Of a DNA stretch of 57,375 nucleotides, positions 13,978-31,669 are shown piece by piece. The notes beneath the pieces were generated by a model. The model was not told where the DNA came from. It made no database searches and saw only the letters and a program-made list of their open reading frames with translations. Numbering within the stretch: position 1 is the first letter of the stretch; each line of letters begins with the position of its first letter. A program made the position numbers and the translations under genes. The stretch comes from Clostridia bacterium (GTDB taxonomy: Bacteria > Bacillota > Peptococcia > DRI-13 > SM3-B62). The DNA lies in contig JAHDQS010000044.1 in NCBI GenBank assembly GCA_018433675.1, positions 1-57,375 on the forward strand, in the 5' to 3' direction.

Positions 13978-15843
13978 TCAGTTCAAATTCAACTTTTTCA
14001 TTCTGCGCCACAGTGTTGAGCGATTAATTCCCAAAATGGCTGCCGCATTTCCCAAGTTGCCGTTAGCTTGCTGGATTGCATCCATTATTTCCTTTTCCTG
14101 ATTTTTTTCACGTATTTGAAAAGGCGTAGGCGAAGCAGTGACCGGTTGTGAGGAAAAGCTGCGGGAGTCGAGTAACCGTTCGATCTGGCTTTGTGTAATG
14201 ACTGAGTTTTTTGTGGTTGCAACGATACGGTCTGCAAGGTTATTGACTTCTCGGACATTACCGCGCCATTGGTAGCGGTTAAGAAAGGAAACAGCATCAT
14301 CACTGAGCGAGATATTGAGACCGGTAATTTTCAAAAAATGCTTTAACAGTATTATCGCGTCTGCTTCCCGTTCGCGAAGAGGTGGGATTGTCAGGTTCAA
14401 GACATTAAGTCGATAGTAAAGGTCCTCCCGGAATTTTCCCTGTTCTACCAGTTCTTGCAGATTACGGTTAGTGGCTGCAATAACTCGTACATCAACAGGG
14501 ATAATTTTTTGACTTCCGAGCCGCACAATATATTTTTCCTGCAATACACGCAACAGTCTGCCTTGACTTGAATAGCTTGTTTCGGAAATTTCGTCAAGGA
14601 AAATGGTGCCGCCATGGGCTGCTTCAAAAAGACCAGCTCTTCCCTTGCGTTTTGCCCCGGTGAAAGCGCCTTCAACATAACCAAACAACTCGCTTTCTAA
14701 GAGAGTTTCCGGTAATGCAGCGCAATTAACCGCTACAAAAGCACCTTTGCGACGATTACCGGCGTTATGGATGCTTTGGGCAAACATTTCTTTGCCGCTG
14801 CCTGTTTCTCCGATAATCAAAACACTTGCATCGGTTTTAGCATAGTTTTTGCCGATACGGATGGTTTCCTGCAGCGTAGGACTTTGCCCAATGATGTCAT
14901 TGAAGTGAAAACGAGCAATGTGGCTGTTACGGACATTGGTTTCCCTGCGAATATGTGTTTCCAGGGATTCAATGTGGGATGGTTCGTGTAATGTATAAAT
15001 GACTCCGTTCTCCCGTTTGCCTTGTATAACAGGAGTGCGAGTTACTAGGATCTGGTTTCCGTTGATGCTGATTAAAGTGTCTTCTCCATCCGGTGTGTCT
15101 TCAGGGAAATAGTCATTTATTGCTTTCCCAATAGCAACAGGGGGAGGTACTTGCAGCATCCGAGCTGCATTTGTATTGACCAGGGTGATTTTACCTTTTA
15201 AATCTACAGATATGACACCCTCGCCGATGCTATCAAGCAACCGGTTTAAGAAACCCTGCCTGGTAGCCTCTACTTCAACAGCATCTTGCACTTGTTTAAT
15301 ATCGTGGATCGCATAACCCATACTTTCAGGCCCCACAACAAGAGGAATCGCCTTTGCGGGGATTCCTAATTCGTTGGCCATTCGGCAGGTGAGAGCACCG
15401 CCAAGGATATATTGGGCTCCTCGCAGCACGGCATCTCGGATGGTATTTTCCAGCTTTGTGAACGGAACCATAAGATAGCCAATAATACGTATGGAATAGA
15501 GTTGCTCGAAAATACTCAATCCGGAGATGTCTACGTTATTTGTAATAACCGCCACTGTTGCTCCGGAAAGATCGGTCTGTTCGAGTGAGCGGATAACATC
15601 ATAGCCGGTTACCTGGATTTGTACGACATGAAGATTCGGAAATTTCTGACGTATAGATGCTGCCGTATTACCTCTTCCTGCTACAATTTCGATACCATCC
15701 TTCAGTTTCCGTTCTACTAAAGGAAGTGGATCGTAAGGGTCAGAAAACTCGAAATATATTTCCGGATAGACTCTGGTGTAATACCTGCGCTGTTCTTCAT
15801 CCATTGAGTCTCGTGGAATCAAAAATAGTACCTTTTTAGCCAT
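13978..15843 (-). CDS. PrpR-type sigma-54-dependent transcriptional activator
   Basis: 621 residues from ATG 15843 (GGGAG upstream; the longer reading to 15969 runs into the binding-site region). Domains in order: PrpR_N ligand sensor (residues about 1-190), PAS (about 205-300, GVISVDLKGKITLVN), AAA+ (about 320-550) with Walker A GETGSGKE, the sigma-54 contact GAFTGAK and Walker B GGTIFLDEI, and a Fis-type helix-turn-helix at the end (LGNAAAILGINRSTLWRRM). PrpR of enterobacteria senses 2-methylcitrate. Here the gene is divergent from citrate lyase genes, so a citrate-like effector is likely. It probably drives all three -24/-12 promoters of this window. Confidence 0.93.
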   Translation of the reverse strand: MAKKVLFLIPRDSMDEEQRRYYTRVYPEIYFEFSDPYDPLPLVERKLKDGIEIVAGRGNTAASIRQKFPNLHVVQIQVTGYDVIRSLEQTDLSGATVAVITNNVDISGLSIFEQLYSIRIIGYLMVPFTKLENTIRDAVLRGAQYILGGALTCRMANELGIPAKAIPLVVGPESMGYAIHDIKQVQDAVEVEATRQGFLNRLLDSIGEGVISVDLKGKITLVNTNAARMLQVPPPVAIGKAINDYFPEDTPDGEDTLISINGNQILVTRTPVIQGKRENGVIYTLHEPSHIESLETHIRRETNVRNSHIARFHFNDIIGQSPTLQETIRIGKNYAKTDASVLIIGETGSGKEMFAQSIHNAGNRRKGAFVAVNCAALPETLLESELFGYVEGAFTGAKRKGRAGLFEAAHGGTIFLDEISETSYSSQGRLLRVLQEKYIVRLGSQKIIPVDVRVIAATNRNLQELVEQGKFREDLYYRLNVLNLTIPPLREREADAIILLKHFLKITGLNISLSDDAVSFLNRYQWRGNVREVNNLADRIVATTKNSVITQSQIERLLDSRSFSSQPVTASPTPFQIREKNQEKEIMDAIQQANGNLGNAAAILGINRSTLWRRMKKLNLN

Positions 15844-15911
15844 TTTCAAAACTCCCGTTTTTATTCTCGTATCGACTTCGTTAGATAATACTGTATCAGA
15901 AAAATGGTGCA

Positions 15912-15951
15912 GTTGCAATAACATGCAACAATAAATTGCAATAAAAGCAAC
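15912..15951. promoter_or_regulatory. Putative activator binding sites upstream of citC
   Basis: GTTGCA-N6-TGCAAC (15912-15929) is a perfect inverted repeat, followed by ATTGCAATAAAAGCAAC (15935-15951). These sit 120-165 bp upstream of the -24/-12 promoter, a usual distance for sigma-54 enhancer sites. Similar boxes precede the other two promoters. Confidence 0.65.
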
Positions 15952-16073
15952 AAAATTTCGTGCTGACACAAAATATCAGCTATAATGGCCTAATCTGCAA
16001 ATTCCCTTATGCGCCTTTGCGTTTTTTGCTGTAGGTTTCAATAAAACACTGTATTTCAGTCTTTTATTCAGCA

Positions 16074-16089
16074 TGGCACACAACTTGCA
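16074..16089 (+). promoter_or_regulatory. Sigma-54 (-24/-12) promoter of the cit operon
   Basis: TGGCAC, five bases, TTGCA is an exact match to the sigma-54 consensus, with GG and GC 12 bp apart. Transcription should start near 16100, leaving about 35 nt of leader before citC. Confidence 0.85.
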
Positions 16090-16135
16090 ATACTCTGTTG
16101 AAGAAGAATATTTTCTGCAGAAAGGATATTCGTCG

Positions 16136-17209
16136 ATGGATGAAAGACTTGTAATCAGAGAATTCATGCCGACATTAGAAAATGACCGCAAAATTCTTTC
16201 TGACTTTCTGGCGCGACACCAACTGCGGTATGAGGAGGATATTGAATATGCAGTGGGGCTTTGTGAAAATGACAGATTAATGGCTTGCGGCTGCTGTGCC
16301 GGTGCTTTGCTAAAATGTTTTGCCGTGGAGGAAGAACTACGTGGTAAGAATGTTTTGGGACGTATTGTTTCGGAGCTTGTCGCTAATCGTTTTTCTGCCG
16401 GCTATTATGAGCCGATAGTCATTACTCCTCCGTATAACCGTTTGCTGTTTGTCAACTGTGGTTTCTTTCCTGTGGCGGAAACAGAGGATTTAGTTTTTCT
16501 GGAACAAAGTCCCGACGGTATTGAGCGGTACTACGCTGGAATGCAGCAATTGGAAGATGCCGGGAAAGATGCCGGTGCTATTGTGGTGAACTGCAATCCG
16601 TTCACGCGGGGGCATCGGTATTTGGTTGAATACGCAGCAGCGCATTGCGATTTGTTGCATATTTTTGTGGTGCAGGAGGATAAATCTGTATTTCCGTTTA
16701 AGGTTCGTTTTAACTTGGTTGAGCAAGGTGTTGCCGATCTTCCCAATGTTCGAGTACACGCCGGAGGAAACTATATCATCTCATCCGCGACTTTTCCGAC
16801 GTATTTCCTTAAAAAGGAAGATGATGCTGTAGAACTACAGGCGAAGCTCGACGCGACAGTTTTTGCAAAACGCATTGCGCCTTTACTTTCCCTTAAGGTC
16901 AGATTCGTAGGCTCAGAGCCTAAATGTCCTGTTACCAGCCAATATAACAGGGTGTTGCACAGGGTTCTTCCTGCAGCCGGAATCAAGGTTATTGAGATTT
17001 TGCGTCGGACAACTAAAGATGGAGAGGTTATCAGTGCATCACGAGTACGAAGCCTTCTGGCGGAAGGGATAGCTGATTCATCGTTGCTTAAGCTTGTTCC
17101 GGAAACCACCTACGAATATCTAATAAGTACAAACGCCACCCCCATTATTAAGGCGTTGCAACAAAAGGGGCAAAAAATATCAAGGAGTTATTCTAATTCT
17201 AAAAATTGA
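16136..17209 (+). CDS. citC: [Citrate (pro-3S)-lyase] ligase CitC
   Basis: 357 residues. It activates citrate lyase by acetylating the thiol of the prosthetic group on CitD, using ATP and acetate. An N-terminal GNAT-like domain (about 1-130) is followed by a nucleotidyl-transferase domain with IVVNCNPFTRGHRYL (about 146-160, HxGH-like) and the ISASRVRSLL segment (about 300). I chose ATG 16136 (AAAGGATA upstream) because the in-frame ATG at 16073 lies on the sigma-54 promoter and could not be in the transcript. First gene of the operon. Confidence 0.92.
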   Translation: MDERLVIREFMPTLENDRKILSDFLARHQLRYEEDIEYAVGLCENDRLMACGCCAGALLKCFAVEEELRGKNVLGRIVSELVANRFSAGYYEPIVITPPYNRLLFVNCGFFPVAETEDLVFLEQSPDGIERYYAGMQQLEDAGKDAGAIVVNCNPFTRGHRYLVEYAAAHCDLLHIFVVQEDKSVFPFKVRFNLVEQGVADLPNVRVHAGGNYIISSATFPTYFLKKEDDAVELQAKLDATVFAKRIAPLLSLKVRFVGSEPKCPVTSQYNRVLHRVLPAAGIKVIEILRRTTKDGEVISASRVRSLLAEGIADSSLLKLVPETTYEYLISTNATPIIKALQQKGQKISRSYSNSKN

Positions 17210-17224: not shown

Positions 17225-17521
17225 ATGCAATTAAAACACCCTGCGGTCGCAGGTACGCTCGAGTCCAGCGATGTGCAGGTGACTATCCATCCCAATAACG
17301 GAATGGGGCTGGACATTCGTATTGAGAGTATTGTCAAGGCGCAGTTCGGGGATGCGATTTTGGAAACAGTCGAGGAGGTTCTGGCGTCATTTGGAATTGC
17401 TGAGGCTTTAGTCCGAATCAACGATAAGGGTGCTCTCGATTGGGTCATTCGGGCCCGCATGCAGGCAGCGATATGTCGGGGAGCAGATTGCAGCTTCGAT
17501 TGGAAGGGGGAAGACGCATAA
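17225..17521 (+). CDS. citD: Citrate lyase gamma subunit (acyl carrier protein) CitD
   Basis: 98 residues. It carries the 2'-(5''-triphosphoribosyl)-3'-dephospho-CoA group used to bind the acetyl/citryl moiety. Ser14 in GTLESSDVQV matches the known attachment serine. HPNNGMGLDIRIES is the conserved follow-on. Its stop shares a base with the citE start (TAATG), giving coupled translation and the 1:1 stoichiometry needed for the complex. Confidence 0.94.
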   Translation: MQLKHPAVAGTLESSDVQVTIHPNNGMGLDIRIESIVKAQFGDAILETVEEVLASFGIAEALVRINDKGALDWVIRARMQAAICRGADCSFDWKGEDA

Positions 17522-18429
17522 TGGAACAAAGAGTATCACTGAAACGCACATCTTTGTACGTAAGCGGTTCGAGCCCTGCTAACATAAATGAGGCGGTTTT
17601 TTACAACGAAGATTGCATTGTTTATGATTTGGAAGATTCGGTTCCGACATCAGAAAAAGATACGGCACGGTTGATAGTATACAATGCTTTGCGTTATCAA
17701 CGCCCTGCAGATAAGTACGTCATTATTCGTGTTAATGGTATCTATTCGGAATTCCTCGATGAGGATTTGGAAGCTTCCGTGCGCGCACGTCCTGATGCTT
17801 TGCGTATTCCCAAGGTTGAATCGGCCGAAGAAGTACAAAAGATCTCGGCCAAGGTAGCGGAAATAGAAAGTCAGGTCGGGATTGAGGTTGGTAGTATTGA
17901 ACTTTGGTGTAATATTGAATCTTATCTGGGAGTAATAAACGCTTTGGAGATAGCTTCCGCTGATCCTCGTGTTGTTGCCTTAGCCCTGGGGGCAGAAGAT
18001 TATACTGCCAGTATGAAAGCTCAACGCACTAAACAGGGTTTGGAAATGTTTTATGCCCGCAATGCCTTATTAATAGCCTGTCGTGCAGCCGGCGTTGATG
18101 CTATAGACATGGTATTCTCTGATATCGATGACTTAGAGGGATTACGTGAAGATGTTTCTATGGCAAGAAACCTCGGTTTTGACGGAAAGACTGCCATACA
18201 TCCGCGCCAAATCGATACAATCAATTCTTTCTTCACACCCAGCAAAAAGGAAATAAATTATGCCCTGAGAGTTCTGGCTGCCGTGGAAGAAGGCAAACGG
18301 CTGAACAAAGGTGCCGTTGCCCTTGATGGCAGCATGATCGATAAACCGGTAGAACTGCGTGCCCTTACTACGATAGCCCAGGCTCGCGCCGCAGGGATCA
18401 AGATTGGAGGAGAGAATCATGCCGGTTAA
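17521..18429 (+). CDS. citE: Citrate lyase beta subunit CitE
   Basis: 302 residues, TIM-barrel of the HpcH/HpaI-citE type. It cleaves citryl-ACP to oxaloacetate and acetyl-ACP. Conserved parts: CIVYDLEDSVP (Mg-binding acids, residues about 31-41), YVIIRVNG, LGAEDYTASM and DGKTAIHPRQI. The start is ATG 17521; an earlier in-frame ATG at 17440 lies inside citD. By family, citramalate lyase beta is the nearest alternative and cannot be excluded by eye. Confidence 0.93.
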   Translation: MEQRVSLKRTSLYVSGSSPANINEAVFYNEDCIVYDLEDSVPTSEKDTARLIVYNALRYQRPADKYVIIRVNGIYSEFLDEDLEASVRARPDALRIPKVESAEEVQKISAKVAEIESQVGIEVGSIELWCNIESYLGVINALEIASADPRVVALALGAEDYTASMKAQRTKQGLEMFYARNALLIACRAAGVDAIDMVFSDIDDLEGLREDVSMARNLGFDGKTAIHPRQIDTINSFFTPSKKEINYALRVLAAVEEGKRLNKGAVALDGSMIDKPVELRALTTIAQARAAGIKIGGENHAG

Positions 18430-19978
18430 CGCAGTTGGAAGGGAGTTACCCGAACGTATCGGTAATTATCTTGTCAAGCCGTATCAAGGTACAAATGCCT
18501 TAGAACCAACATCAAAAAAAGTAGTATCCAACCGAGTACTGACTTTGCGTCCGGCCAGCGGCAGCAAGGTTGTTGACACCTTGGAGCAAGCTATTCAAGC
18601 CACCGGGCTCAAAAACGGTATGACCATTTCATTTCATCACAGCTTTCGCGAAGGAGATTTAGTAGTTGGGCAAGTACTGACGGCTATTCGTAATCTTGGT
18701 ATTAAAAACCTTCGGTTTGCGCCTAGTGCAGTGGTTAATATTAAAAATCCATCGATTGTTGATTTCGTGCGCGACGGCACCATCACCCGTATCGAAGCAA
18801 GCGGTATTCGCGGTGAATTAGGCGATGCGGTTATTGACGGACTGATGGAAGAACCGGTCATTTTGCGTACCCACGGAGCCCGACCCCGGGCTATAGAGGC
18901 CGGGGAACTGGAAATAGATGTTGCCTTTATCGGGGCTTCGGCGGCTGACGAATATGGCAACGCTACCGGGCAAATCGGTCCTAACGCTTGCGGAGCATTG
19001 GGATATTCCTTTATTGATGTCACTACTGCAGGCAAAGTGGTTATAATTACTGATAATATGGTGGATTATCCTTGTGTTCCGGCCAGCATCTCACAGCAAT
19101 ATGTTGACTATGTAGTAGTCGTGGAACAGATAGGAATTCCTGAAAAAATTGGGGCCGGGGCAACTCGTATGACCCGCAATCCACGTGATTTAATGATTGC
19201 CCAAAGAATTGCCGATGTTATTGCTGCATCCCGTTTATTTAAAAATAATTTTTCCTTTCAAACCGGGGCAGGATCCATCAGTATCGCATGTACCAACTAT
19301 CTTGCTGATCGGATGGAAGAACGCGGCATTAAGGCAAGCTTTGCCCTGGGTGGTATTACTGCGAACATTGTTGAAATGTTCAACAAGGGTTTGGTAAGGG
19401 TCCTGGAAGGTTCACAGTCTTTTGATGCGGTGGCAGCTCGTGCCATTGCAGAGCATCCAAACATCCTTGAAATTGATAATGCTGTTTACTCCAATATGTA
19501 TGGCAAAGGCTGTATGCTCGATAAACTCAACTTTGGCGTGTTAACTGCGTTGGAGATAGATGTTGATTTCAATTTAAATATTTTAACCGGTTCAAGCGGA
19601 GAAATGATGGGTGGGCTTGGAGGCGGTCCCGATGTTGCCAGCGGTGCCGATATTTCCATTGCCGCCTTGCCAATTGTTCGCGGGAGAACCCCTTCGGTAG
19701 TAAATAAAGTGTTTACCATCTGTACTCCGGGTGAAACCGTGGCCATGGTTGTCACAGAAGCGGGAATCGCTCTCAATCCGCGTCATAAACATTATGAAAT
19801 GCTGCGTGAGGATATGGAAAAGACCGACTTGAAGATAGTATCCATTGAATCGTTGCGTCAGTTGGCAGAATCCTTCACCGGAAAGCCGAAACAGATCGAA
19901 TGTACAGACAAAATTGTGTGCATTGTCGAGTACCGTGACGGCACGGTAATCGATGTCATACGCCAGATCAAACGATGA
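18419..19978 (+). CDS. citF: Citrate lyase alpha subunit CitF
   Basis: 519 residues. It transfers the ACP from acetate to citrate (citrate:acetyl-ACP transferase). It begins MPVNAVGRELPERIGNYLVKPYQG, and conserved parts such as GLKNGMTISFHHSFREGD and GSSGEMMGGLGGGPDVASGA are present. It overlaps citE by 11 nt, with GGAGGAGA as its ribosome site inside citE. Length is as expected for the family. Confidence 0.94.
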   Translation: MPVNAVGRELPERIGNYLVKPYQGTNALEPTSKKVVSNRVLTLRPASGSKVVDTLEQAIQATGLKNGMTISFHHSFREGDLVVGQVLTAIRNLGIKNLRFAPSAVVNIKNPSIVDFVRDGTITRIEASGIRGELGDAVIDGLMEEPVILRTHGARPRAIEAGELEIDVAFIGASAADEYGNATGQIGPNACGALGYSFIDVTTAGKVVIITDNMVDYPCVPASISQQYVDYVVVVEQIGIPEKIGAGATRMTRNPRDLMIAQRIADVIAASRLFKNNFSFQTGAGSISIACTNYLADRMEERGIKASFALGGITANIVEMFNKGLVRVLEGSQSFDAVAARAIAEHPNILEIDNAVYSNMYGKGCMLDKLNFGVLTALEIDVDFNLNILTGSSGEMMGGLGGGPDVASGADISIAALPIVRGRTPSVVNKVFTICTPGETVAMVVTEAGIALNPRHKHYEMLREDMEKTDLKIVSIESLRQLAESFTGKPKQIECTDKIVCIVEYRDGTVIDVIRQIKR

Positions 19979-20014
19979 AAAAAGCTGTACTGCTTTAAAA
20001 AGGGAGACTTTGCA

Positions 20015-20611
20015 ATGAACAAACAGTCCTGTGTGGTTCAGTCTAAAGAAATTCTCGATGCCAGAGAGCGCAGAGCAAAACGTCAGCGCAGTATGCTGGC
20101 TTGCAACGGAGATTGTGTTATCAGTTTTACCCTTAACATCCCAGGCCCCGTTAAACTGAATTCTCTGATTCGGGAAAGCTTTACTGAGGGGCTTGAAAAA
20201 ATCGAGAGAAAGCTTAAGAAAAGCCATGTTGACGTGGTTCAAAAAGAGATGAAGACAGTGAAAACGGGATGTGAAGCCTTAATTTCTGTTGTTTGCGATG
20301 ATGCGCTGAAGATTAAGGGAATGATGGTTGAAATAGAGGATGAACATCCTCTCGGCAGACTGTATGACATAGATGTTATTTCAAAAGACGAGGTGCCCGT
20401 TTCGCGAAGTATGCTGGGGTATCCGGCACGTCGATGCTTGATTTGTGATCACATGGCCCATGAGTGCGCCCGCTCCCAGTGCCATGATTACAAGCTGTTA
20501 CAACGGAAAACCGAATCTATTATGAAAGAGTATTTTTCTTCACGTCGTGTTGTACTGGAAAAAAGCAAGCAATATATCAGCCCGGCTGGGTATTACGATT
20601 GTGCAATATAA
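20015..20611 (+). CDS. citX: Apo-citrate lyase phosphoribosyl-dephospho-CoA transferase CitX
   Basis: 198 residues. It attaches the prosthetic group to CitD. The motif GRLYDIDVI (residues about 113-121) and the late RRCLICDHMAHECARSQCHD (about 147-166) are typical of CitX. CitG, which makes the prosthetic-group precursor, is neither fused here nor found elsewhere in the window, so it must be encoded elsewhere. Confidence 0.92.
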   Translation: MNKQSCVVQSKEILDARERRAKRQRSMLACNGDCVISFTLNIPGPVKLNSLIRESFTEGLEKIERKLKKSHVDVVQKEMKTVKTGCEALISVVCDDALKIKGMMVEIEDEHPLGRLYDIDVISKDEVPVSRSMLGYPARRCLICDHMAHECARSQCHDYKLLQRKTESIMKEYFSSRRVVLEKSKQYISPAGYYDCAI

Positions 20612-20671: not shown

Positions 20672-21643
20672 ATGCCGGTAATTCTTTTAACAAATCATTA
20701 CAACGAAGGGCCGTTGAGTATTGTGCAAGAAGCAGTTCCCGCAGGGTTTAGCCTAGTAACTTTAGATGAGCCAACTAAAGAGGAGTTAATCAAAAAGGCG
20801 AAGGAGGCTGAATATTTTCTGGTAAGCGGACGGCTACCCATTGACAAGGAAGTTTTAGATGCTGCTCCCAAGCTCAAAATGATCCAGAGAACAGGTGTCG
20901 GGACAGAAATGTTTGACATGGAAGCCCTGAAGGAAAAAAACATACCTATTTATGTGAACCCGGGGGTAAATGCCGTAAGTGTGGCAGAACATGCTGTGAT
21001 GCACATTCTTGCCGTTCTTCGTCGAATAACCATAGTGAACGGGAATGTCAAGAAAGGGATTTGGGCAAAACAGGATACAGGAGTACAAAGCAAAGAGCTT
21101 CGTGGAAAAACCGTCGGTATGTTGGGCATGGGTAATATTGGCCGCAATGTGGTTAAGATGTTGAGTGGCTTCGGGGTTAATATCGTGTATTACGATATGT
21201 TCAGACTAAAAGAAGAGCAGGAAAAAGAACTTGGCATCACATATGCTTCACTGGAAGAAGTATTTAAGAAAGCAGACATTTTAAGCCTCCATTGTCCGTT
21301 AACTCCGGAAACAAAGGGCATCATCAATGCAAAATCAATAGCTTTAATGAAAAAAGGTGTCATCATAGTTAATACCGCCAGAGGCGGACTGATAGATGAA
21401 GTTGCCTTAATAAAGGCTCTGGAATCAGGACAAGTCGGCGCGGCGGGACTTGATGTTTTTGCCAAAGAACCGCCGGATAAAGCTAATCCCTTGCTCAGCT
21501 TTGAGAATGTTTCGGTTTCACCTCATGTTGGCGGTTTAACTTATGAAGCATTCAAAAGCATGATGGTAGAAGCAACGCACAACATGAAGCTTTTTGAGGA
21601 AGGCAAGGTCGAAGAGTTAGAGAGTAAGAAGATAAATAAATAA
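20672..21643 (+). CDS. D-isomer-specific 2-hydroxyacid dehydrogenase
   Basis: 323 residues. It is an NAD(P)-dependent reductase/oxidase of 2-oxo/2-hydroxy acids. The Rossmann motif GMLGMGNIGRNV starts near residue 150. Catalytic Arg is in NTARGGLID (about 233), Glu in FAKEPP (about 263) and His in SPHVGG (about 284). AGGAGG stands before the ATG. Its place behind the lyase genes suggests it handles an oxoacid product or a hydroxyacid precursor of the pathway. Confidence 0.92.
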   Translation: MPVILLTNHYNEGPLSIVQEAVPAGFSLVTLDEPTKEELIKKAKEAEYFLVSGRLPIDKEVLDAAPKLKMIQRTGVGTEMFDMEALKEKNIPIYVNPGVNAVSVAEHAVMHILAVLRRITIVNGNVKKGIWAKQDTGVQSKELRGKTVGMLGMGNIGRNVVKMLSGFGVNIVYYDMFRLKEEQEKELGITYASLEEVFKKADILSLHCPLTPETKGIINAKSIALMKKGVIIVNTARGGLIDEVALIKALESGQVGAAGLDVFAKEPPDKANPLLSFENVSVSPHVGGLTYEAFKSMMVEATHNMKLFEEGKVEELESKKINK

Positions 21644-21669: not shown

Positions 21670-22566
21670 TTGAAAGAGACAAGAGAATTTCTGAAGAAGA
21701 TTGGACAGCCAGAGGGGGATTTATACAATCTGCCGACATCCCAGAAGAGGTTTCCGGACGGCGGTCAGTACAGGTTTGAGGTTCCCGGAATCCAAGGACC
21801 CGGAACAATGAAAACACTGTTGGAGGAACTTGACAAATATAAGATTGCTATTCATCGCGTAACCCAGACCAAAGGCATCATGTCCCTTACCGATGATGAA
21901 ATCAAGACGATGGTAGAACTGGCAAAACAATGGCAGGTGGACCTGATCTTAGCAATCGGGCCGAGAGCTACTACCGACACCAGCGCTTCGGTGCATACAC
22001 CGGAAGGACAGCGCATGGGTTACCGTTTGAGAGGGCAAGAACAAATTGTTCGTGCTGTAGAAGAAGTAAAACGTGCCAGTGCCCTTGGTTGTTATACCTT
22101 CTTAGTATACGATGAGGGAGCTCTGTGGGTATTGGGTAAGATGCGCGAAGAGGGCGAAATCCCGGCAGACTGCAAATTCAAAGTATCGGCACATTCCGGT
22201 CATGGCAATCCCTGCTCGGCTAAACTTCTGGAAGAGCTGGGAGCAAACTCCTTTAACCCGGTAAGAGACTATCAGCTGCAAATGCTGGCTGCCATCAGAT
22301 ACGCCATAGATATCCCGATAGACGTGCATACAGAGAATCCCACATCCTCCGGCGGATTCATTCGTCACTACGAAGTACCTGAGATAGTGAGGGTTGCCGC
22401 TCCGGTATACCTGAAGACCGGCGGTTCAGTTGCAGCAACACACAGTTGGGATTCCACCGATGCGGACGCCAAGAAGAGGGCCAAGCAGATTGTTCTCGTG
22501 AAGAGAATGCTTGATGTCTACTATCCGGAGGCCGTAGCATCTCCCAAAGGTTCAATAGCTCACTGA
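21670..22566 (+). CDS. Unrecognised 298-residue protein, copy 1 (TIM-barrel-like)
   Basis: I do not recognise a described enzyme family with confidence. The pattern of strand-loop motifs (VDLILAIGPRA, FLVYDEGALWVLGKM, CKFKVSAHSGHG, IPIDVHTENP, PVYLKTGG) suggests a TIM barrel with His/Glu/Asp-rich loops that could bind a metal and carboxylates. The TTG at 21670 is preferred because AGGAG stands 8 nt before it; the GTG at 21661 would abut it. A second copy, over 90% identical, follows the PrpD gene. Position makes it a pathway enzyme. Confidence 0.8.
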   Translation: MKETREFLKKIGQPEGDLYNLPTSQKRFPDGGQYRFEVPGIQGPGTMKTLLEELDKYKIAIHRVTQTKGIMSLTDDEIKTMVELAKQWQVDLILAIGPRATTDTSASVHTPEGQRMGYRLRGQEQIVRAVEEVKRASALGCYTFLVYDEGALWVLGKMREEGEIPADCKFKVSAHSGHGNPCSAKLLEELGANSFNPVRDYQLQMLAAIRYAIDIPIDVHTENPTSSGGFIRHYEVPEIVRVAAPVYLKTGGSVAATHSWDSTDADAKKRAKQIVLVKRMLDVYYPEAVASPKGSIAH

Positions 22567-22591
22567 GAGTATTGATATTAAAAGAGATTGG

Positions 22592-23953
22592 ATGATAATA
22601 ATGAAAAAGAATCTTACGGATATCCTGATAGACGATCTATATAAACAGATAAACGAACAGATTCCGGAAGCCGTTGTAATGCAGGCCAAAAAGTGTTTAC
22701 TTGACTATTTGGGAACGGGACTGGCCGGCGCAGCTATGGTTCAGGATAAGGCCCAAAAGTATCTGGACTTCTTTGATACAACACAGAATGAGGCTACAGT
22801 AGTGGGTTTTAAGAGAAAGGCAGCCCTTCATAATGCAGTATTTGTAAACGGATATGCCGCACACTTAACAGAATTGGACGACGGACATCGCTTTTGCAAT
22901 GTACACTTGGGAACCACGATAATTCCGGCTGTCTTGGCTGTGGCGGAATACGAGGGATTAAAGGGAGAAGATGTATTGCGGGGTATCGTCATCGGATACG
23001 AGGCTGCAATTCGCTTGTTACGCGCAATTCAGCCCTCACATAAGAATCGTGGATATCATGCCTCGGGTACCGGCGGGACGATTGGTGCCGCCATGGGTAT
23101 TGCAGCGGCATTGAAGTTTTCCAAGCCGCAAATGAAGGATGCTCTTTCCGCGGCAATCGCCAGTGTTGTCGGTTTTCTGGAGGTTTTGGAAGATGATTCG
23201 GAACTTAAACCCTATAACGTAGGGAGAGCCGGACATGATGGCTTGACAGCAGCTTATGTGGCACGTGCAGGATTCAAAGGACCAAATGATATGGTAGGAG
23301 GCAAGAGAGCATTTTTTGCCCTTATGTCAGATCAATATGACGAGACCAGTCTAAACAGAGAAAAAGACGGTGCTTACGGTATTGAAATGGTCTACAGAAA
23401 GCCTTATGCTGCGTGTCGACACTGTCATGCGCCGATTGAGGCAGCCCTTAATCTCAAGAAAAAACACGACATTGAGATTTGGGACATTAGGGAAATAGAT
23501 GTGTATACCTATAAGGCGGCGGTACTCGGGCATGAATATACGAACATACAAGGTATTACTTCGGCTAAGATGAGTACTCCGTTTAGTGTTGCTGTAGCCC
23601 TTGCAACCGGCAGAGCCGGGCTCAATGAGTTTTTGCCGCAATATATAGAAGACAAAAACATTATTGCGCTGAACCAAAAGGTCAAGGTTGAAGAAGACAA
23701 GGAACTTACGGCCCTCGTACCCAACAAACGTGGTGCGATTGTAAAGATTGTTACTAACGACGGTAAGATATATATCGAAAGGGTCGATTATCCAAAAGGA
23801 GAACCGGAGAACTCCATGTCGGTTGAAGATATAGAAGAAAAGTTCATTTCTTTGGCGATGTATGGAGGAAGAACAGAAGAGGAAGCTAAGAGGATAATTC
23901 AACAGGCCTGGAATATTGAGGGCGGCTTATCAGAACTATTCGCTATGCTGTAA
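22592..23953 (+). CDS. MmgE/PrpD-family dehydratase
   Basis: 453 residues. The family contains 2-methylcitrate dehydratase (PrpD), citrate/methylcitrate dehydratase (MmgE), aconitate decarboxylase and iminodisuccinate epimerase. Visible family parts: DYLGTGLAGA (about 30-40), FVNGYAAHLTELDDGHR (about 86-102), ASGTGGTIGAAMG and KPYAACRHCHAPIEAAL (about 271-287). Co-location with citrate lyase and a PrpR-type regulator favours a tricarboxylate substrate. Start uncertain by 9 nt (ATG 22592 or 22601). Confidence 0.9.
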   Translation: MIIMKKNLTDILIDDLYKQINEQIPEAVVMQAKKCLLDYLGTGLAGAAMVQDKAQKYLDFFDTTQNEATVVGFKRKAALHNAVFVNGYAAHLTELDDGHRFCNVHLGTTIIPAVLAVAEYEGLKGEDVLRGIVIGYEAAIRLLRAIQPSHKNRGYHASGTGGTIGAAMGIAAALKFSKPQMKDALSAAIASVVGFLEVLEDDSELKPYNVGRAGHDGLTAAYVARAGFKGPNDMVGGKRAFFALMSDQYDETSLNREKDGAYGIEMVYRKPYAACRHCHAPIEAALNLKKKHDIEIWDIREIDVYTYKAAVLGHEYTNIQGITSAKMSTPFSVAVALATGRAGLNEFLPQYIEDKNIIALNQKVKVEEDKELTALVPNKRGAIVKIVTNDGKIYIERVDYPKGEPENSMSVEDIEEKFISLAMYGGRTEEEAKRIIQQAWNIEGGLSELFAML

Positions 23954-23966
23954 AAATGCTGTGAAT

Positions 23967-24016
23967 CATGCAAGGGCCGGCGGTTGCCTTAATGGCTGCA
24001 ATGCGGTCCTTGCATG
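23967..24016 (+). other. Hairpin between prpD-like gene and second 298-aa copy
   Basis: CATGCAAGGGCCG (23967-23979) pairs with CGGTCCTTGCATG (24004-24016), one G-T pair included. A short A-rich tract, not a T run, follows, so it is more likely an RNA stability or processing element, or the scar of the gene duplication, than a terminator. Confidence 0.5.
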
Positions 24017-24048
24017 AAAAAAAGAAAAAAATATAAGGAGTGGTTGAG

Positions 24049-24945
24049 TTGAAAGAGACAAGAGAATTTCTGAAGAAGATTGGACAACCGGCAGGAGATT
24101 TATACAATCTGCCAACATCCCAGAAGAGGTTTTCAGACGGAGGCCAGTACAGGTTTGAGGTACCCGGAATCCAGGGACCCGGAACAATGAAAACACTGTT
24201 GGAGGAACTTGACAGGTATAAAATAGCTATTCACCGCGTAACCCAGACCAAGGGTATCATGTCCCTTACTGATGAGGAAATTTCTAAGATGGTAGCTTTA
24301 GCAAAAGAATGGCAGGTAGACCTGATTTTAGCAATCGGACCGAGAGCAACTACCGACACCAGCGCTTCAGTGCATACCCCGGAAGGACAGCGTATGGGTT
24401 ACCGTTTGAGAGGGCAAGAACAAATAGTTCGTGCTGTCGAAGAAGTAAAACGTGCCAGCTCTTTGGGATGCCGTTCCTTCTTAGTATACGATGAAGGCGC
24501 TCTGTGGGTATTGGGCAAGATGCGCAAAGAGGGCGAAATCCCGGCAGACTGCAAGTTCAAAGTATCGGCACACTCCGGCCATGGCAATCCCTGCTCGGCT
24601 AAGCTGGTGGAAGAACTGGGGGCAGACTCCTTTAACCCGGTAAGAGATATTCAGCTTCAGATGTTGGCTGCCATCAGGTATGCCATTGATATCCCCATCG
24701 ACATCCATACAGAGAATCCCAAGTCCTCCGGCGGATTTATCCGTCACTATGAAGTACCTGAGATAGTGCGGGTTGCCGCTCCGGTATATCTGAAGACCGG
24801 CGGTTCAGTTGCTGCAACACATAGCTGGGATTCCACCGATGCAGATGCCAAGAAGAGAGCCAAGCAGATTGTTCTCGTTAAGAGAATGCTTGATGTCTAC
24901 TATCCGGAGGCTATATCATCTCCCCAAGGTTCAATAGCGCACTAA
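24049..24945 (+). CDS. Unrecognised 298-residue protein, copy 2 (TIM-barrel-like)
   Basis: Same protein as copy 1 with scattered changes (for example REEGEIPADC to RKEGEIPADC; VASPKG to SSPQG near the end). The duplication includes the ribosome site and TTG start (AAGGAGTGGTTGAG before 24049). Both copies keep every Gly/His/Asp-rich loop, so both look functional. They may form a heteromer, act on two stereoisomers, or reflect recent gene amplification. Confidence 0.8.
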   Translation: MKETREFLKKIGQPAGDLYNLPTSQKRFSDGGQYRFEVPGIQGPGTMKTLLEELDRYKIAIHRVTQTKGIMSLTDEEISKMVALAKEWQVDLILAIGPRATTDTSASVHTPEGQRMGYRLRGQEQIVRAVEEVKRASSLGCRSFLVYDEGALWVLGKMRKEGEIPADCKFKVSAHSGHGNPCSAKLVEELGADSFNPVRDIQLQMLAAIRYAIDIPIDIHTENPKSSGGFIRHYEVPEIVRVAAPVYLKTGGSVAATHSWDSTDADAKKRAKQIVLVKRMLDVYYPEAISSPQGSIAH

Positions 24946-26414: not shown

Positions 26415-27470
26415 ATGACAGAGGGAAAAAGAGTTGATTGGCAGAAGGCAAGGGAGCTTTGCGCGAAAATCTATATGGCACGAGGTATTCCGGAGGCGGA
26501 TGCGTATATGGTATCTGATAATTTGATATCCGCTGAGCTTAATGGAGTGTATTCCCACGGTATCACCAGAATGAAGATGTATATGAGATATATTGATAAA
26601 GGACAGGCTAACAGTAGTGGTGAAATCAAGATAATCAATGAAGGTCCTGCTACGCTGCATATTGATGGTAATAACTGTTTAGGTGCCGTAGTTGCTACTA
26701 AGGCTGTCAAAAAAGGTATAGCAAAGGCTAAAGAAATGGGTGCCGCTATTGTCAGTGTGCGCCGCTCGAATCACTTTGGCACAGCCGCCTATTATACACA
26801 AATGATTGCCGAACAGGGTATGGTAGGTATAGCCGCGACCAATGCTTTTCCCCATGTTGCTCCTTTGGGCAGTTCTAAGGAGTATCTAGGGACTAACCCG
26901 ATATCTTTCGGTGCTCCGACAGCCTCGGGCAAGCCGATGATACTGGATATGGCCACCTCAGTGGTAGCCAGAGGGAAAATATCGGTCGCTGCCGAAAAGG
27001 GTGAGCCGATTCCTCTTGGTTGGGCTCTTGATGCCGACGGGAATCCAACTACTGATGCCAAAGCGGCTGCTAACGGAGTCTTATTGCCAATTGCCGGTCC
27101 CAAGGGATATGGATTGTCACTGTTTATTGACGTGCTTTCCGGAGTGTTATCCGGAGCCAAGTTTGGTGGACATTTAGGACCACATGCCGTTGGAAATACA
27201 TCAAAAGATACCGACGTTGGTCATTTCTTTGTAATCGTCGATATTTCCCGCTTTATGCCTCTTGATGAGTTTAACGAGCGCATGGGTGTGATAATCAGCG
27301 ACATTAAGGCCTTGCCAAAAATCGAAGGCGTTTCTGAAATATTTATGCCGGGAGAGATTGAGCAACGCAAGGTTGATGTTAACATGAAGGAAGGTCTGCT
27401 GCTGAGCGAGGCGCTGTTAGGTGAGCTCCAAAAGATGTGTGAACGTTTCGGCATTGACTTCAATCTATAA
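26415..27470 (+). CDS. Ldh2/MDH2-family NAD(P)-dependent dehydrogenase
   Basis: 351 residues of the malate/L-sulfolactate/ureidoglycolate dehydrogenase family, which has a non-Rossmann NADH fold. Typical parts: NGVYSHGITRMKMYMR (residues about 44-59), VSVRRSNHFGTAAYYTQ with the catalytic His (about 113-129), LGTNPISFGAPT and GPKGYGLSLFIDVLSG. Oxidation of a 2-hydroxyacid such as malate to an oxoacid fits the pathway. GGGGGCG before the ATG is the likely ribosome site. Confidence 0.9.
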   Translation: MTEGKRVDWQKARELCAKIYMARGIPEADAYMVSDNLISAELNGVYSHGITRMKMYMRYIDKGQANSSGEIKIINEGPATLHIDGNNCLGAVVATKAVKKGIAKAKEMGAAIVSVRRSNHFGTAAYYTQMIAEQGMVGIAATNAFPHVAPLGSSKEYLGTNPISFGAPTASGKPMILDMATSVVARGKISVAAEKGEPIPLGWALDADGNPTTDAKAAANGVLLPIAGPKGYGLSLFIDVLSGVLSGAKFGGHLGPHAVGNTSKDTDVGHFFVIVDISRFMPLDEFNERMGVIISDIKALPKIEGVSEIFMPGEIEQRKVDVNMKEGLLLSEALLGELQKMCERFGIDFNL

Positions 27471-27490
27471 GGGTTTAGACAATGTGTTAG

Positions 27491-27544
27491 AGGCTGTCTT
27501 ACTATGGGATAATGCAAAAATGGGTATCCTGGGTAAGACAGCCT
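27491..27544 (+). other. 12-bp hairpin between Ldh2-type and C45 genes
   Basis: AGGCTGTCTTAC (27491-27502) is perfectly complementary to GTAAGACAGCCT (27533-27544), with an inner GGAT/ATCC pair. No T run follows. It may be an RNA processing or attenuation site separating two parts of the operon. Confidence 0.55.
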
Positions 27545-27579
27545 TTAACATAAGGTGTTCAAAGGAGGGATTGGAATCC

Positions 27580-28773
27580 ATGGAAATAGTTATTGCAAAG
27601 GGAACTTATGAGAGAATGGGATATGAACTGGGGATCAAACTGGCGGAGGCTATACGTCACAACATTTCTTTATTGAATCAGGGTATCGTGGCTAAAGGGA
27701 TTGAGAAGAAAGCAGTATATCGCTTGATTAGCAGTTATACAACATTACTCAGTAACACTTCCATACAATTGATGGAGGGTTTAAGCCGGGGGAGCGGCGT
27801 ACCCTTTGAATCGATTCTTCGTTTTAATGCCTTGCAGGATGCCTTTTTTCAGGAAGAATGTACGACTTTTGCTGCTATCGGGAAAGCTACGGCTGATGGT
27901 AAGGCCTTTTTATTGAAGAACAGGGATACGAGCGGAAATCGTGAATTCAATGGTCCGGCGTATTACAAGAATAGGACGGTTAACGTTACTTTGGTTCTTC
28001 AAACAGACGATGGAAATGTAATGATTGGCGTAACAAACGCTGGGTCAACCGGGTTTATGATGGGAATGAACAAATATGGGGTCGCCGTAGCCAGCAATAT
28101 GGGGCAAACTAAAGAAATCAGTAAAGTACCACCCAAAGAAAGGCAGGGCATCAGCGGGAGGCCCCAAATGCTGCGGGAGAGCTTAGAATGCACTGCAGCT
28201 CACGATGCTGTAAATCTTATTCTATCCAAGCTGACAAAGTCTTCTATGAGATTACCGGGAATCCTATGGTTTGTTGATGCTAATAACATCTACGTTGTTG
28301 AAGGTACCGGCGGACAATTTGCTGTCCAGCATGTCACAGATGGCACCGTTTCCAGAAGCAATCACTTTGAGTTAATGGAACAGTTCAATAATGAAAAGGA
28401 ACCTTCTCCAATATGTCGTAAAATACGCGCAAAAGAACTTCTTGAATTAAATCACGGGCATATTGACAGAGAAAAGATGATAGAGTTTTCGATGGACCAC
28501 AAAAATGGACCGGGTGAGAACTCGATATGTCGTCACAGTAAAGACCCGGAAGAGAGTGTGACCGTATCGGCGGCAATCATGGAGATTGATAAAGAAAACC
28601 CTCAGAAATCGAAAATAAGCATTGCCTTAGGAACTCCCTGCCAAGCTTGGGGCGAGGAAGGGGGTAGTATTACGATTCGGTTGGATGAGGATGTTGAAGC
28701 GATACCACAGCGTTTTCTCGATAATACTGCCTTTACGGAGTATTTTAAGCCTACCAGCCTACTTAAGAGTTAA
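27580..28773 (+). CDS. C45-family Ntn-hydrolase (acyl-CoA:6-aminopenicillanate acyltransferase-like)
   Basis: 397 residues from ATG 27580 (AAAGGAGG upstream). C45 enzymes self-cleave to expose an N-terminal Cys and hydrolyse or form amide bonds. The likely nucleophile is Cys94 in QEECTTFAA, followed by the family segments AFLLKNRDTSGN, MIGVTNAGSTGFMMGMNKYGVAV and the late SKDPEESVTVSAAIMEI. In a catabolic operon it may split an amide-linked substrate. The segment before Cys94 would be the propeptide. Confidence 0.85.
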   Translation: MEIVIAKGTYERMGYELGIKLAEAIRHNISLLNQGIVAKGIEKKAVYRLISSYTTLLSNTSIQLMEGLSRGSGVPFESILRFNALQDAFFQEECTTFAAIGKATADGKAFLLKNRDTSGNREFNGPAYYKNRTVNVTLVLQTDDGNVMIGVTNAGSTGFMMGMNKYGVAVASNMGQTKEISKVPPKERQGISGRPQMLRESLECTAAHDAVNLILSKLTKSSMRLPGILWFVDANNIYVVEGTGGQFAVQHVTDGTVSRSNHFELMEQFNNEKEPSPICRKIRAKELLELNHGHIDREKMIEFSMDHKNGPGENSICRHSKDPEESVTVSAAIMEIDKENPQKSKISIALGTPCQAWGEEGGSITIRLDEDVEAIPQRFLDNTAFTEYFKPTSLLKS

Positions 28774-28796
28774 CTTAGAAAAAAGAGGTAATAAAC

Positions 28797-29669
28797 ATGA
28801 GAAGTGTCGATACAAATCAAAAATTTAGTTATGACGAGTTTAAAAGGGATTATGTTGAGAGAAAAATGATGTTTCATAGGAAGCCTTCGATTGCATACTG
28901 CAAACCCTTTCGCATTTTTGGCAACCTTTACTATATCGGCGATAAAAGGGTGTGCTCGCACCTTGTTGACACCGGCGAAGGATTGATTGTTTTCGATAGC
29001 GGTTACCAGCACACGATTCACTTGTTGGTACAGTCGATATGGGAGATGGGCTTTAATCCGGCTGACATTAAGTATCTCATCCATACACATGGACACTTTG
29101 ATCATTTCGGTGCCAGCAATGAATTCCGCGCACTCTATAAGTGCACGACCGTTATGAGTCGTGTGGATACGGAAATGTTGCGGGATAAACCCGAGGGTGC
29201 TCTGATGGAGTTAAGTTCAGATCCTGATGCTGAACTTCCCATAATAGACAAAACCTTCGAGGATGGAGAGATCATTGCTCTTGGCAACACTTCGATCCGG
29301 TGTGTTCTTACGCCAGGGCATTCGCCAGGCAACTCCGCATTCTTTTTTGATGTGCGGGATGGGAAACAGACGTATACAGTTGCCTATTTTGGTGGTGCAG
29401 GGTTCAATTGGGTGCGCAAGGGATTTTTGGATAGATATAACTTTCCTTATTCCTTACGCAATGATTTTATTAAATCTATTGATAAGGTTCGAGGCGAGAA
29501 GGCAGATATTGTTTTAGGGAGTCATCCGGGACAATACAACTTGTTTGAGAAAAGAAAACGCATGGAGGAAAACCTGCAAAGCAATCCGTTTATTGATCCC
29601 GGTGAGTGGGAGAGGTATTTGACCGGACTTAAGGCAAGATACCAAGAATTCCTGGTTAATGAAGAGTAA
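28797..29669 (+). CDS. MBL-fold metallo-hydrolase
   Basis: 290 residues. The zinc motif HTHGHFDHFGA begins near residue 96. LTPGHSPGNSAFFFDVR (about 170-186) supplies the next His. VLGSHPGQYN near residue 240 supplies the last. The overall layout resembles subclass B3-like hydrolases and lactonases. The substrate is unknown; ester, lactone or thioester hydrolysis fits the operon. Last gene before the second sigma-54 promoter. Confidence 0.88.
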   Translation: MRSVDTNQKFSYDEFKRDYVERKMMFHRKPSIAYCKPFRIFGNLYYIGDKRVCSHLVDTGEGLIVFDSGYQHTIHLLVQSIWEMGFNPADIKYLIHTHGHFDHFGASNEFRALYKCTTVMSRVDTEMLRDKPEGALMELSSDPDAELPIIDKTFEDGEIIALGNTSIRCVLTPGHSPGNSAFFFDVRDGKQTYTVAYFGGAGFNWVRKGFLDRYNFPYSLRNDFIKSIDKVRGEKADIVLGSHPGQYNLFEKRKRMEENLQSNPFIDPGEWERYLTGLKARYQEFLVNEE

Positions 29670-29710
29670 GGAACGCAGACATATAAAATCCTTGCAGACG
29701 TATGAAACAC

Positions 29711-29768
29711 GATGCAATACAAACAACACAACCGCTACGAAAACGCAACAAATGCAACAATTCTTGCA
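29711..29768. promoter_or_regulatory. Putative activator sites upstream of the binding-protein gene
   Basis: Boxes GATGCAAT (29711), GCAACAAATGCAAC (29744-29757) and TGCAACAATTCTTGCA (29753-29768, an inverted repeat). They stand about 110-165 bp before the -24/-12 promoter, and the motif is shared with the other two enhancer-like regions. Confidence 0.6.
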
Positions 29769-29877
29769 AGATGCCTTTGCTTCGATGATAAGACTAAAAC
29801 TATTATGCTCCTCGATATATCAATGATACCAAGCTTTATAAGCAGAAATACAGGTTTAATTCAAGATAAAGAAAAAA

Positions 29878-29893
29878 TGGCACGAGAATTGCA
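29878..29893 (+). promoter_or_regulatory. Sigma-54 (-24/-12) promoter before the peptide-binding protein
   Basis: TGGCAC, five bases, TTGCA again fits the consensus exactly. Start of transcription should be near 29905, giving a leader of about 140 nt before the lipoprotein start at 30044. The rest of the 374-bp gap contains no gene I can support. Confidence 0.83.
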
Positions 29894-30043
29894 AATATTA
29901 TTATTATATAATTCACCTTAAAAACTATATGGGTATTTGTATACCGTCAGGAAGAAAATATGTCAAAGGAGGGATAATAACTAAAAAAAGAGATTTAGAC
30001 GTTAAAGAGAAGTAAATAAAATTAATAGGGAGGAAAGATAAAC

Positions 30044-31567
30044 GTGAGAAAACAAAGGAAAATAATTGCATTGTTATTGGTTGTTATGATGCTCGTAGTA
30101 TTAATGGTCGGCTGTTCTCCAAAAGAGGAAGAAGAACCGGCGGTCAGTGAAGGTAGTTACGCGGAGGAGGTTATCGTAACAGCTGCTGCTGCTCCTCCGG
30201 CACTTGACCCTAATATTTCAACAGCTAATGCATCGCGAAGATTCACTTCCCACGTGTATGAGACTCTGTTGAAATTTGATCCTGCCACAAAATCGGCAAA
30301 ACCTTGGCTGGCAGAATCATGGGAAGAGTCTGCCCCTGGCGAATATATTTTCCATCTTCGTGAAGGCGTTAAATTCCATAAAGGTGAAACCCTCACCGCC
30401 GCAGATGTAAAGTACACATATGAAAGATGCATGACACTGCCCGCGGCGCTCCCGTTTGTTGAAATCATTGATAAAATCGAGGTTATCGATGATCTTACTG
30501 TGAAGATTACCCTCAAAAATCCCTCTCCGATATTCCTCGGCAACCTCTGCCATATGGTGACAGCTATCATCAAAGAAGGTTCGGGAGAAGGGCTTGCAGA
30601 AAATCCGAATGGGACAAATGCCTACATTATGACAGAACACAAAGCCGACGACTATGTAATGCTCGAGCGCTTTGATGATTATTGGGGTGGTGTAAAGCCC
30701 ACAAAACGTATTAAAATGAGGATTATTCCGGACAACAACGCCCGCAACCTGGCCGTAGAGGCCGGCGATATTCATGTCGGTATTCAGGTTACCAATGCCG
30801 ACTATAGTTCGCTGAAGAACAATCCAAATGTTACTATCTTGGCTGTACCTTCAATTCTCGTTGAGTATTTTTCCATGAACGTCTCCAAGCCGCCCTTTGA
30901 TGATGTGCATGTTAGAAAGGCCATAGCTTACGCATTCAATAAGGAAGTGGTTATTGACGGCATTTACGAGGGTGATGCCCTCAACGCCAAATCGTTCATT
31001 AATGTTAGTGCCTTTGGATACGATCCCGATGTAAAACACTACGAGTATAACGTTGACAAGGCTAAGGAAGAATTGGCCAAGTCCAAATACCCAGATGGGT
31101 TTGAATTCGACTGCTATACCACATCCTCCCGTGGCAGATACACAGAGGCGTTGCAGTATGACCTGTCACAAATAGGCATTACTATGAACGTTGAATTCGT
31201 CCAAAACGTAGCGGCGGCTATAAATACCGGCTACGAGGGCGCTCATATTACCTCTGTTCAGTATCCTACGTATGATGCTGACCAAGTCTACAGATACTTG
31301 CACTCCAGCACTCATGGAGCAGGTGGTAACATGTCCTGGTATGCGAACCCGAAAATGGATGAATTGCTGGAGGCTAGCAGGGTAGAAATGGATACTGCCA
31401 AGCGCGAGCAAATATTCAAGGACATCCAGGAGCTTATGTATGAGGAAGCAATCAACATCCCGATACTGACCAGGATAGTAAAGGCTGCTATCGTTAAGGG
31501 AGTAGGCGGATTTGAGCCTGATGCGGCAACGATAGATTACTTTGGTGATGTTTACCTCGAGCAGTAA
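30044..31567 (+). CDS. ABC transporter substrate-binding lipoprotein, family 5 (DppA/OppA-like)
   Basis: 507 residues. GTG start with GGGAGGAAAG upstream. Signal peptide with lipobox LMVGC (Cys24), so it is anchored outside the membrane. SBP_bac_5 domain parts: WLAESWEESAPGEYIFHLREGVKFHKGE (residues about 87-114), YTYERCM and KPPFDDVHVRKAIAYAFNKE (about 283-302). It delivers peptides, glycosides or related solutes to the DppBCDF pore downstream. In this operon it should bind the pathway substrate. High expression is likely: it has its own sigma-54 promoter and a terminator. Confidence 0.93.
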   Translation: MRKQRKIIALLLVVMMLVVLMVGCSPKEEEEPAVSEGSYAEEVIVTAAAAPPALDPNISTANASRRFTSHVYETLLKFDPATKSAKPWLAESWEESAPGEYIFHLREGVKFHKGETLTAADVKYTYERCMTLPAALPFVEIIDKIEVIDDLTVKITLKNPSPIFLGNLCHMVTAIIKEGSGEGLAENPNGTNAYIMTEHKADDYVMLERFDDYWGGVKPTKRIKMRIIPDNNARNLAVEAGDIHVGIQVTNADYSSLKNNPNVTILAVPSILVEYFSMNVSKPPFDDVHVRKAIAYAFNKEVVIDGIYEGDALNAKSFINVSAFGYDPDVKHYEYNVDKAKEELAKSKYPDGFEFDCYTTSSRGRYTEALQYDLSQIGITMNVEFVQNVAAAINTGYEGAHITSVQYPTYDADQVYRYLHSSTHGAGGNMSWYANPKMDELLEASRVEMDTAKREQIFKDIQELMYEEAINIPILTRIVKAAIVKGVGGFEPDAATIDYFGDVYLEQ

Positions 31568-31575
31568 GGATCTAA

Positions 31576-31617
31576 AAAAAAACAGTGCTGTCCTTTATGA
31601 GGCAGCACTGTTTTTTC
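31576..31617 (+). terminator. Rho-independent terminator after the binding-protein gene
   Basis: AACAGTGCTG (31581-31590) pairs with CAGCACTGTT (31603-31612), followed by TTTT. It may let the binding protein be made in excess over downstream genes. Confidence 0.85.
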
Positions 31618-31669
31618 TTACTAGCGAAAGTGTTAGTTATTCTGAATGAAAATGGAAGAGAGTGATAAG

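Follow-up and report, generated by a model that had tools for sequence, protein, structure and literature searches.

Here we describe two near-identical genes, FAM1 and FAM2, in a 57,375-nt stretch of DNA (the window) from Clostridia bacterium (assembly GCA_018433675.1, contig JAHDQS010000044.1). To the extent that sequence and gene company can establish it, both encode one enzyme of an unnamed U32-like family, here called FAM, which acts in hydroxy- and oxo-acid metabolism and not in proteolysis. The gene pair is ordinary in itself, and interest lies rather in the family and the modular pathway to which it belongs. FAM is widespread, probably misnamed "U32 peptidase" and tied to a conserved module. 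The pair and the gene between its members are located as follows.

21670..22566, + strand: FAM1, first U32-like copy; likelier start TTG at 21670 (mechanical open reading frame from GTG at 21661)
22592..23953, + strand: MmgE/PrpD-family gene between the copies; both Pfam domains match
24049..24945, + strand: FAM2, second copy; likelier start TTG at 24049 (mechanical open reading frame from GTG at 24040)

An earlier note, made from the sequence alone, had described a near-identical pair with the same start signals around a PrpD-like gene, and this description was borne out. The mechanical open reading frames, 21661-22566 and 24040-24945 (+ strand, 301 amino acids each), lie on both sides of the MmgE/PrpD-family gene and are identical at 281 of 301 residues (93%) and 809 of 906 nucleotides. 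The 97 nucleotide differences are distributed 18/9/70 over codon positions 1, 2 and 3 and are mostly silent, with 64 codons changed synonymously and 20 with a residue change. The ratio of nonsynonymous to synonymous divergence (Ka/Ks) is 0.02-0.08. Sequence likeness falls off sharply beyond the genes, where about 23 upstream bases are shared, including the ribosome-binding site: AAGGAG stands 8 nt ahead of an in-frame TTG at both 21670 and 24049. These TTG starts agree with the coordinate of the earlier note and with the N-termini of homologues, and the proteins are probably 298 amino acids long. The window genome contains exactly two FAM copies and no third. In the only other sampled genome of the genus (G398, one contig counted as both L002 and L080), gene order is the same and both copies occupy corresponding places. 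An assembly artefact, whether a collapsed contig or the duplication that the earlier note had raised, was ruled out because the copies diverge by 11% at the nucleotide level and the same arrangement is present in that separate assembly. The duplication is genuine and functional, and neither copy is decaying.

Sequence searches of FAM1 and FAM2 against Pfam, NCBIfam and PDB gave nothing above cut-off. The weak PDB rows look like chance, and a direct sequence relation to solved structures was rejected. At E up to 10, neither copy matched PF01136, the Pfam family of U32 proteins, to which UbiU and UbiV belong; two FAM relatives touch it below cut-off (17.8 and 16.1 bits vs 22.4). The profile and structure searches proposed in the earlier note indicated a U32-like TIM barrel. 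The AlphaFold model is a TIM barrel with a mean predicted local distance difference test score (pLDDT) of 85.3, and Foldseek ranked a U32 protein first (6.6e-8), the next match being at 2.8e-6. Comparison of FAM with 20 U32 proteins by hhalign gave a probability of 95.9 (E 5.5e-9, 131 columns), whereas 17 other alignments used as controls, TIM barrels among them, reached a probability of at most 6.9. Judged from these comparisons, FAM is a divergent U32 TIM-barrel branch without the U32 cysteines and shares a common barrel ancestry with that family.

FAM resembles the U32 family (PF01136; TrhP and RlhA, PMC6599085) in its TIM-barrel core, with an alignment over strands 3-7, but it lacks the Fe-S-type cysteines, stays below the Pfam cut-off, is about 300 amino acids long and lies in acid-metabolism operons. 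In TrhP, a U32 member, a glutamate and two cysteines (E162, C170 and C177) are reported to be essential (PMC6599085). Neither cysteine has a counterpart in FAM, in which the richest Cys column holds 26 of 69 sequences (<40%), while the acid is kept as D221. By our own reading of the alignment, D221 falls on the U32-motif glutamate, and U32 counterparts exist for D151, S176 and D203. The candidate active-site residues, invariant or nearly so, would be E40, R66, D151, K174, S176, N199, D203, D221 and K252. A retained U32-type role, either hydroxylation-related chemistry or proteolysis, would agree with the statistically clear U32 relationship and with GenBank, which names two distant FAM relatives "U32 family peptidase". 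We regard it as very improbable, given that the cysteines reported as essential in TrhP are missing, that no Cys column reaches 40% and that the neighbours are small-acid enzymes. Nor does a well-characterised family of unrelated function, which the earlier note had considered, account for the pair, the U32 likeness being distant and the two essential cysteines absent.

Of 398 genomes sampled from the window's phylum, 32 carry FAM, which also occurs in Bacteroidota, Verrucomicrobiota, Omnitrophota, Chloroflexota/Thermomicrobiota, Actinomycetota and Enterobacter, as the sequence records are named; no relatives were found in phages. Eubacterium ruminantium FB3002 and Mediterraneibacter massiliensis are cultured carriers. 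Gene company was compared in 85 loci, made up of a set of 61 in which L002 and L080 count separately, 4 plasmid records and a final 20 loci. The close-family set comprises 20 loci with 72-78% identity, the window genus left out, from Bacillota, Bacteroidota, Omnitrophota and Verrucomicrobiota (as records are named). The distant-family sets comprise 19 loci with relatives of 45-56% identity and 20 further loci with 33-39%. Gene names in L102 and L103 are those of the record, and those in L104 and L105 come from our own reading plus Pfam and NCBIfam scans; L004 and L011 are short contigs of metagenome-assembled genomes and may be misbinned.

The close-family loci are mostly surface-polysaccharide clusters. 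Among the 20, a PF15617 CitE-like C-C lyase and an ATP-grasp protein each occur in 18, fumB plus fumA in 16, a PrpD-like gene in 15, a glycosyltransferase in 12, DegT in 9 and a polysaccharide flippase-type protein in 7. In the 45-56% set the partners are malic enzyme-type proteins (12 of 19), FumAB (8), DctM (8), Ldh2 (7), TctC (7), PrpR-like regulators (7) and aldehyde:ferredoxin oxidoreductase (5; 6 of the 61 loci overall). In the 33-39% set they are PanB-like proteins (11 of 20), ELFV dehydrogenases (8) and IlvD-type proteins (3). A creatininase-family protein in L085 exceeds the cut-off for 3-dehydro-scyllo-inosose hydrolase (563.2 vs 245).

A sugar-acid dehydratase of the mandelate racemase/muconate lactonizing enzyme (MR/MLE) or IlvD type lies near FAM in at least 10 of the 85 loci (L022, L062, L064, L075, L102, L105 and L185-L188), and in at least that many FAM takes the place after such a dehydratase in a catabolic operon. 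This count is a lower bound, MR/MLE proteins having been searched by BLAST only in the last 20 loci, and the Pfam scan of IlvD-type proteins covered only the one in L062. Against the galactonate-dehydratase cut-off of 311, the L022 dehydratase scores 372.3 and that of L102 falls just short (310.6). In L105, Pfam identifies an SMP-30 lactonase and an MR/MLE dehydratase, to which reading by eye adds an alcohol dehydrogenase and a sugar ABC transporter. The L186 set consists of a short-chain dehydrogenase/reductase, an MR/MLE protein, FAM, a 2-hydroxy-3-oxopropionate-reductase-like protein and a metallo-beta-lactamase-fold (MBL) protein. The reductase-like protein follows FAM in both L186 and L187, below cut-off (228.0 and 233.4 vs 340.75).

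Because the annotated neighbourhoods are nearly all of 2-oxo- and 2-hydroxy-acid enzymes, and because FAM occupies the expected place of the aldolase in several sugar-acid operons, we tentatively favour, at somewhat under even chances, a 2-oxo-acid aldolase-type C-C lyase that would cleave or form the bond; both chemistry and substrate are deduced from this setting. Like the 2-keto-3-deoxy-acid aldolases (KDPG/KHG PF01081, HpcH/HpaI type, DHDPS type), FAM is a TIM barrel, and in sugar-acid operons it takes the same place after a galactonate-dehydratase-type enzyme. As a candidate aldolase it differs from them in having no sequence match to aldolase families at E up to 10.

Several findings weigh against this assignment. 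Known aldolase families are absent from the Pfam matches at E up to 10 and from the NCBIfam matches at E up to 1, and the U32 relatives of known role take part in hydroxylation and not in aldol chemistry (PMC6599085). VIA-align Z values were tied over unrelated TIM barrels and favoured no class, so that the choice of the nearest fold was based solely on the order of Foldseek matches and on the profile comparison. The aldolase slot is not always empty, since another aldolase-family gene lies near FAM in 5 of the 85 loci: a KDPG aldolase in L187, an MhpE-type protein in L062 and DHDPS-like proteins in L096 (by eye), L177 and L178 (BLAST). Furthermore, a PanB-like gene is the sole partner of FAM in L065, L171, L174 and L175. 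The pairing of FAM relatives with a PanB-like (ketopantoate hydroxymethyltransferase) gene and little else was observed in these loci and in L100 and L101.

The C-C lyases already present nearby (PF15617 in 18 of 20 close loci, PanB-like proteins in 11 of 20 distant ones, others in the five loci just named) would suit a different division of labour, in which the CitE-type, PanB-like or other aldolases cleave while FAM isomerises, epimerises, hydrates or dehydrates 2-oxo or 2-hydroxy acids. We consider this possible but doubtful; in L105, L102, L022 and L185, where neighbours were mostly named by eye, no other aldolase was recognised among the genes examined.

In 17 of the 20 close loci exactly one of SerA, Ldh2 or an aldo-keto reductase plus thiamine pyrophosphate (TPP) enzyme was present, and in none were two. 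The three loci with none are two truncated contigs and L020. The loci are related, and these counts are therefore a pattern and not a probability. We infer that SerA, Ldh2 and the reductase with its TPP enzyme are three interchangeable uses of one acidic 2-oxo acid. The third combination, a decarboxylase-type enzyme with an aldo-keto reductase, was seen in polysaccharide clusters of L008, L010, L019 and L082, and the L082 reductase is closest to AKR7-type aflatoxin aldehyde reductases. All four TPP enzymes exceed the phosphonopyruvate-decarboxylase cut-off (411-442 vs 312.5). No phosphoenolpyruvate (PEP) mutase over the TIGR02320 cut-off was found in the seven genomes tested, including the four with the decarboxylase-like gene; the four sub-cut-off matches bear the motif EDQ..K-C-G-H, which we take to be of the methylisocitrate-lyase type. 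On these grounds FAM might replace PEP mutase and form phosphonopyruvate or some other 3-substituted pyruvate, with the SerA, Ldh2 and decarboxylase-plus-reductase exits using the product. Such a role would leave the citrate-lyase, hydratase and sugar-acid neighbours unexplained, and the decarboxylase may use another acid; there is little likelihood of it.

The genes of the window operon around the pair are as follows.

13978..15969, - strand: PrpR-like sigma-54-type regulator, divergent, upstream of the operon (by eye from the translation)
16073..17209, + strand: citC-like ligase gene (by eye and position)
17225..20611, + strand: citD, citE, citF and citX, citrate-lyase-type (profiles; citD by position and eye)
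20672..21643, + strand: SerA-type D-2-hydroxyacid dehydrogenase (PF00389, PF02826)
24974-25477, + strand: fumB, subunit of an Fe-S fumarase/tartrate-dehydratase-type hydratase (fumB and fumA: PF05683, PF05681)
25493-26362, + strand: fumA, subunit of the same type of hydratase
26415..27470, + strand: Ldh2-type malate/L-lactate dehydrogenase family protein (PF02615)
27490..32476, + strand: downstream genes for AAT-type N-terminal-nucleophile (Ntn) hydrolase, MBL-fold, solute-binding and creatininase-type proteins

CitF exceeds the TIGR01584 cut-off (602.9 vs 501.45), CitE stays under that of TIGR01588 (315.1 vs 443.4) and CitX matches PF03802. BLAST relatives of the PrpR-like regulator lie near FAM in 14 loci. 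Downstream, the Ntn-hydrolase and MBL-fold genes match PF03417 and PF00753, the creatininase-type gene an NCBIfam model below cut-off, and the solute-binding protein was assigned by eye; these genes may serve in the release or import of the substrate.

Although both Pfam domains of the MmgE/PrpD family are present in the gene between the copies, it is far under the PrpD equivalog cut-offs of NCBIfam (58.2 vs 950, 40 vs 575 and 26.7 vs 458), and methylcitrate dehydratase was rejected for it, as was a true methylcitrate pathway in the window. Its nearest solved relatives are the B. subtilis IRG1-like protein, IRG1 and IDS-epimerase. Since it is closer to these than to PrpD, the operon need not handle methylcitrate. 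In the window, FAM would degrade a branched or citrate-like acid together with the citrate-lyase-type enzyme, the two 2-hydroxyacid dehydrogenases and the (de)hydratases of PrpD-like and FumAB type, and the operon, with its downstream amidohydrolase-type genes, would be catabolic.

A broader reading joins these elements. FAM would be a new family in which a U32-derived barrel has turned into a 2-oxo-acid C-C lyase within a PrpD-like/FumAB/CitE-type module leading to an acidic 2-oxo acid. The module, so far unreported, would run as biosynthesis in surface-polysaccharide clusters of several phyla. Its three interchangeable exits would be a D-hydroxyacid, an L-hydroxyacid, or decarboxylation and aldehyde reduction, followed by ATP-grasp ligation to an amino sugar. 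The window operon, which has citrate lyase and amidohydrolase-type genes, would be its mirror image and break down substituents of that kind. We think it unlikely that this reading holds in all its parts. The suggestion of the earlier note that the family may hold an uncharacterised pathway step is plausible. In open-access literature (listings and starts of abstracts) nothing relevant was found that joins U32 with citrate lyase, gene clusters, aldolase, sugar-acid or phosphonopyruvate decarboxylase, nor on the combination of PrpD, fumarate hydratase, ATP-grasp and capsule. If the peptidase name were corrected, several catabolic operons would gain a step that is now missing, and a conserved and apparently undescribed pathway would come to light that is linked to the surface polysaccharides of gut and rumen bacteria. 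The U32 barrel, which is known for prephenate-dependent hydroxylation, would also be seen to do another kind of chemistry.

Both FAM copies would catalyse the same reaction. The two-substrate use proposed in the earlier note found no support, because the copies agree at every family-conserved position: all 20 substitutions lie outside the positions conserved at >=93% in the 69-sequence family alignment, and the nearest to such a change is position 145, R in 63 of 69 sequences and Y in copy 1. In both genomes of the genus the two copies adjoin different hydratase genes, and positions 18, 79, 83, 163, 196 and 145 set the FAM1 pair apart from the FAM2 pair, as would be expected if FAM1 served the PrpD-like branch and FAM2 the fumarase branch with different substrates. 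The unchanged conserved positions make this split improbable, as does the finding of one FAM copy, within the stretch examined, in L020 and in 14 of the 15 close loci that have a PrpD-like gene (L017 ends at a contig edge).

Synonymous divergence (Ks) is 0.45 for the pair in the window and 0.62 for the pair in the relative; across the two genomes it is 0.25 for FAM1 and 0.69 for FAM2. In the codon and protein trees, both FAM1s form a group (supports 98 and 99) that excludes the FAM2s and every outgroup, while the outgroups join beside the window's FAM2 (supports 93 and 85). L020 has the order citDEF-FAM-fumBA with no PrpD-like gene in the stretch examined. Because of the trees and the L020 arrangement, FAM2 beside fumB appears to hold the older place, and FAM1 with the PrpD-like gene appears to be a derived block. 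Identity to the relative per 100 bases is 89-99% from about 21400 to 24100 and 70-93% inside FAM2, so that the higher-identity block stops at the start of the second copy. The longest exact runs between the copies are 41, 40, 32 and 32 nt. Identity pattern and exact runs fit an exchange of the block through the repeat, though they are suggestive only. The recombination foreseen in the earlier note is thus supported only in part: exchange would fit, but neither deletion nor amplification of the PrpD-like gene was observed, both copies being present in 2 of 2 genomes of the genus.

A stem-loop lies between the PrpD-like gene and FAM2.

23966..24017, + strand: stem-loop, -33.3 kcal/mol, z -4.44

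It is single-copy in the genome, and no Rfam match was found within 12000-34000. By our own count, 108 of 111 bases around it are unchanged in the genus relative, whereas FAM2 differs by 14%. The stem-loop could split the expression of the operon's two halves. We speculate that two copies are kept for dosage or for separate expression across it.

Some further loci with FAM relatives were recorded. In L103 (9977-20502), an Enterobacter plasmid, the relative lies in an apparent natural-product cluster with D-2-hydroxyacid dehydrogenase-type, aminotransferase, iron-containing redox enzyme and major facilitator superfamily genes. An arginase/agmatinase-family gene lies near FAM in L079, L173 and L181, where L173 passes the agmatinase cut-off and the other two were assigned by eye. 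In these three loci FAM is also close to genes for ferredoxin-type proteins and for transporters of the TRAP or tricarboxylate type, and this company hints at a guanidino-acid substrate. Away from the pair, at 39106-41760 of the window, an aspartokinase-like gene is followed by a D-threonine-aldolase/alanine-racemase-like gene (both by eye).

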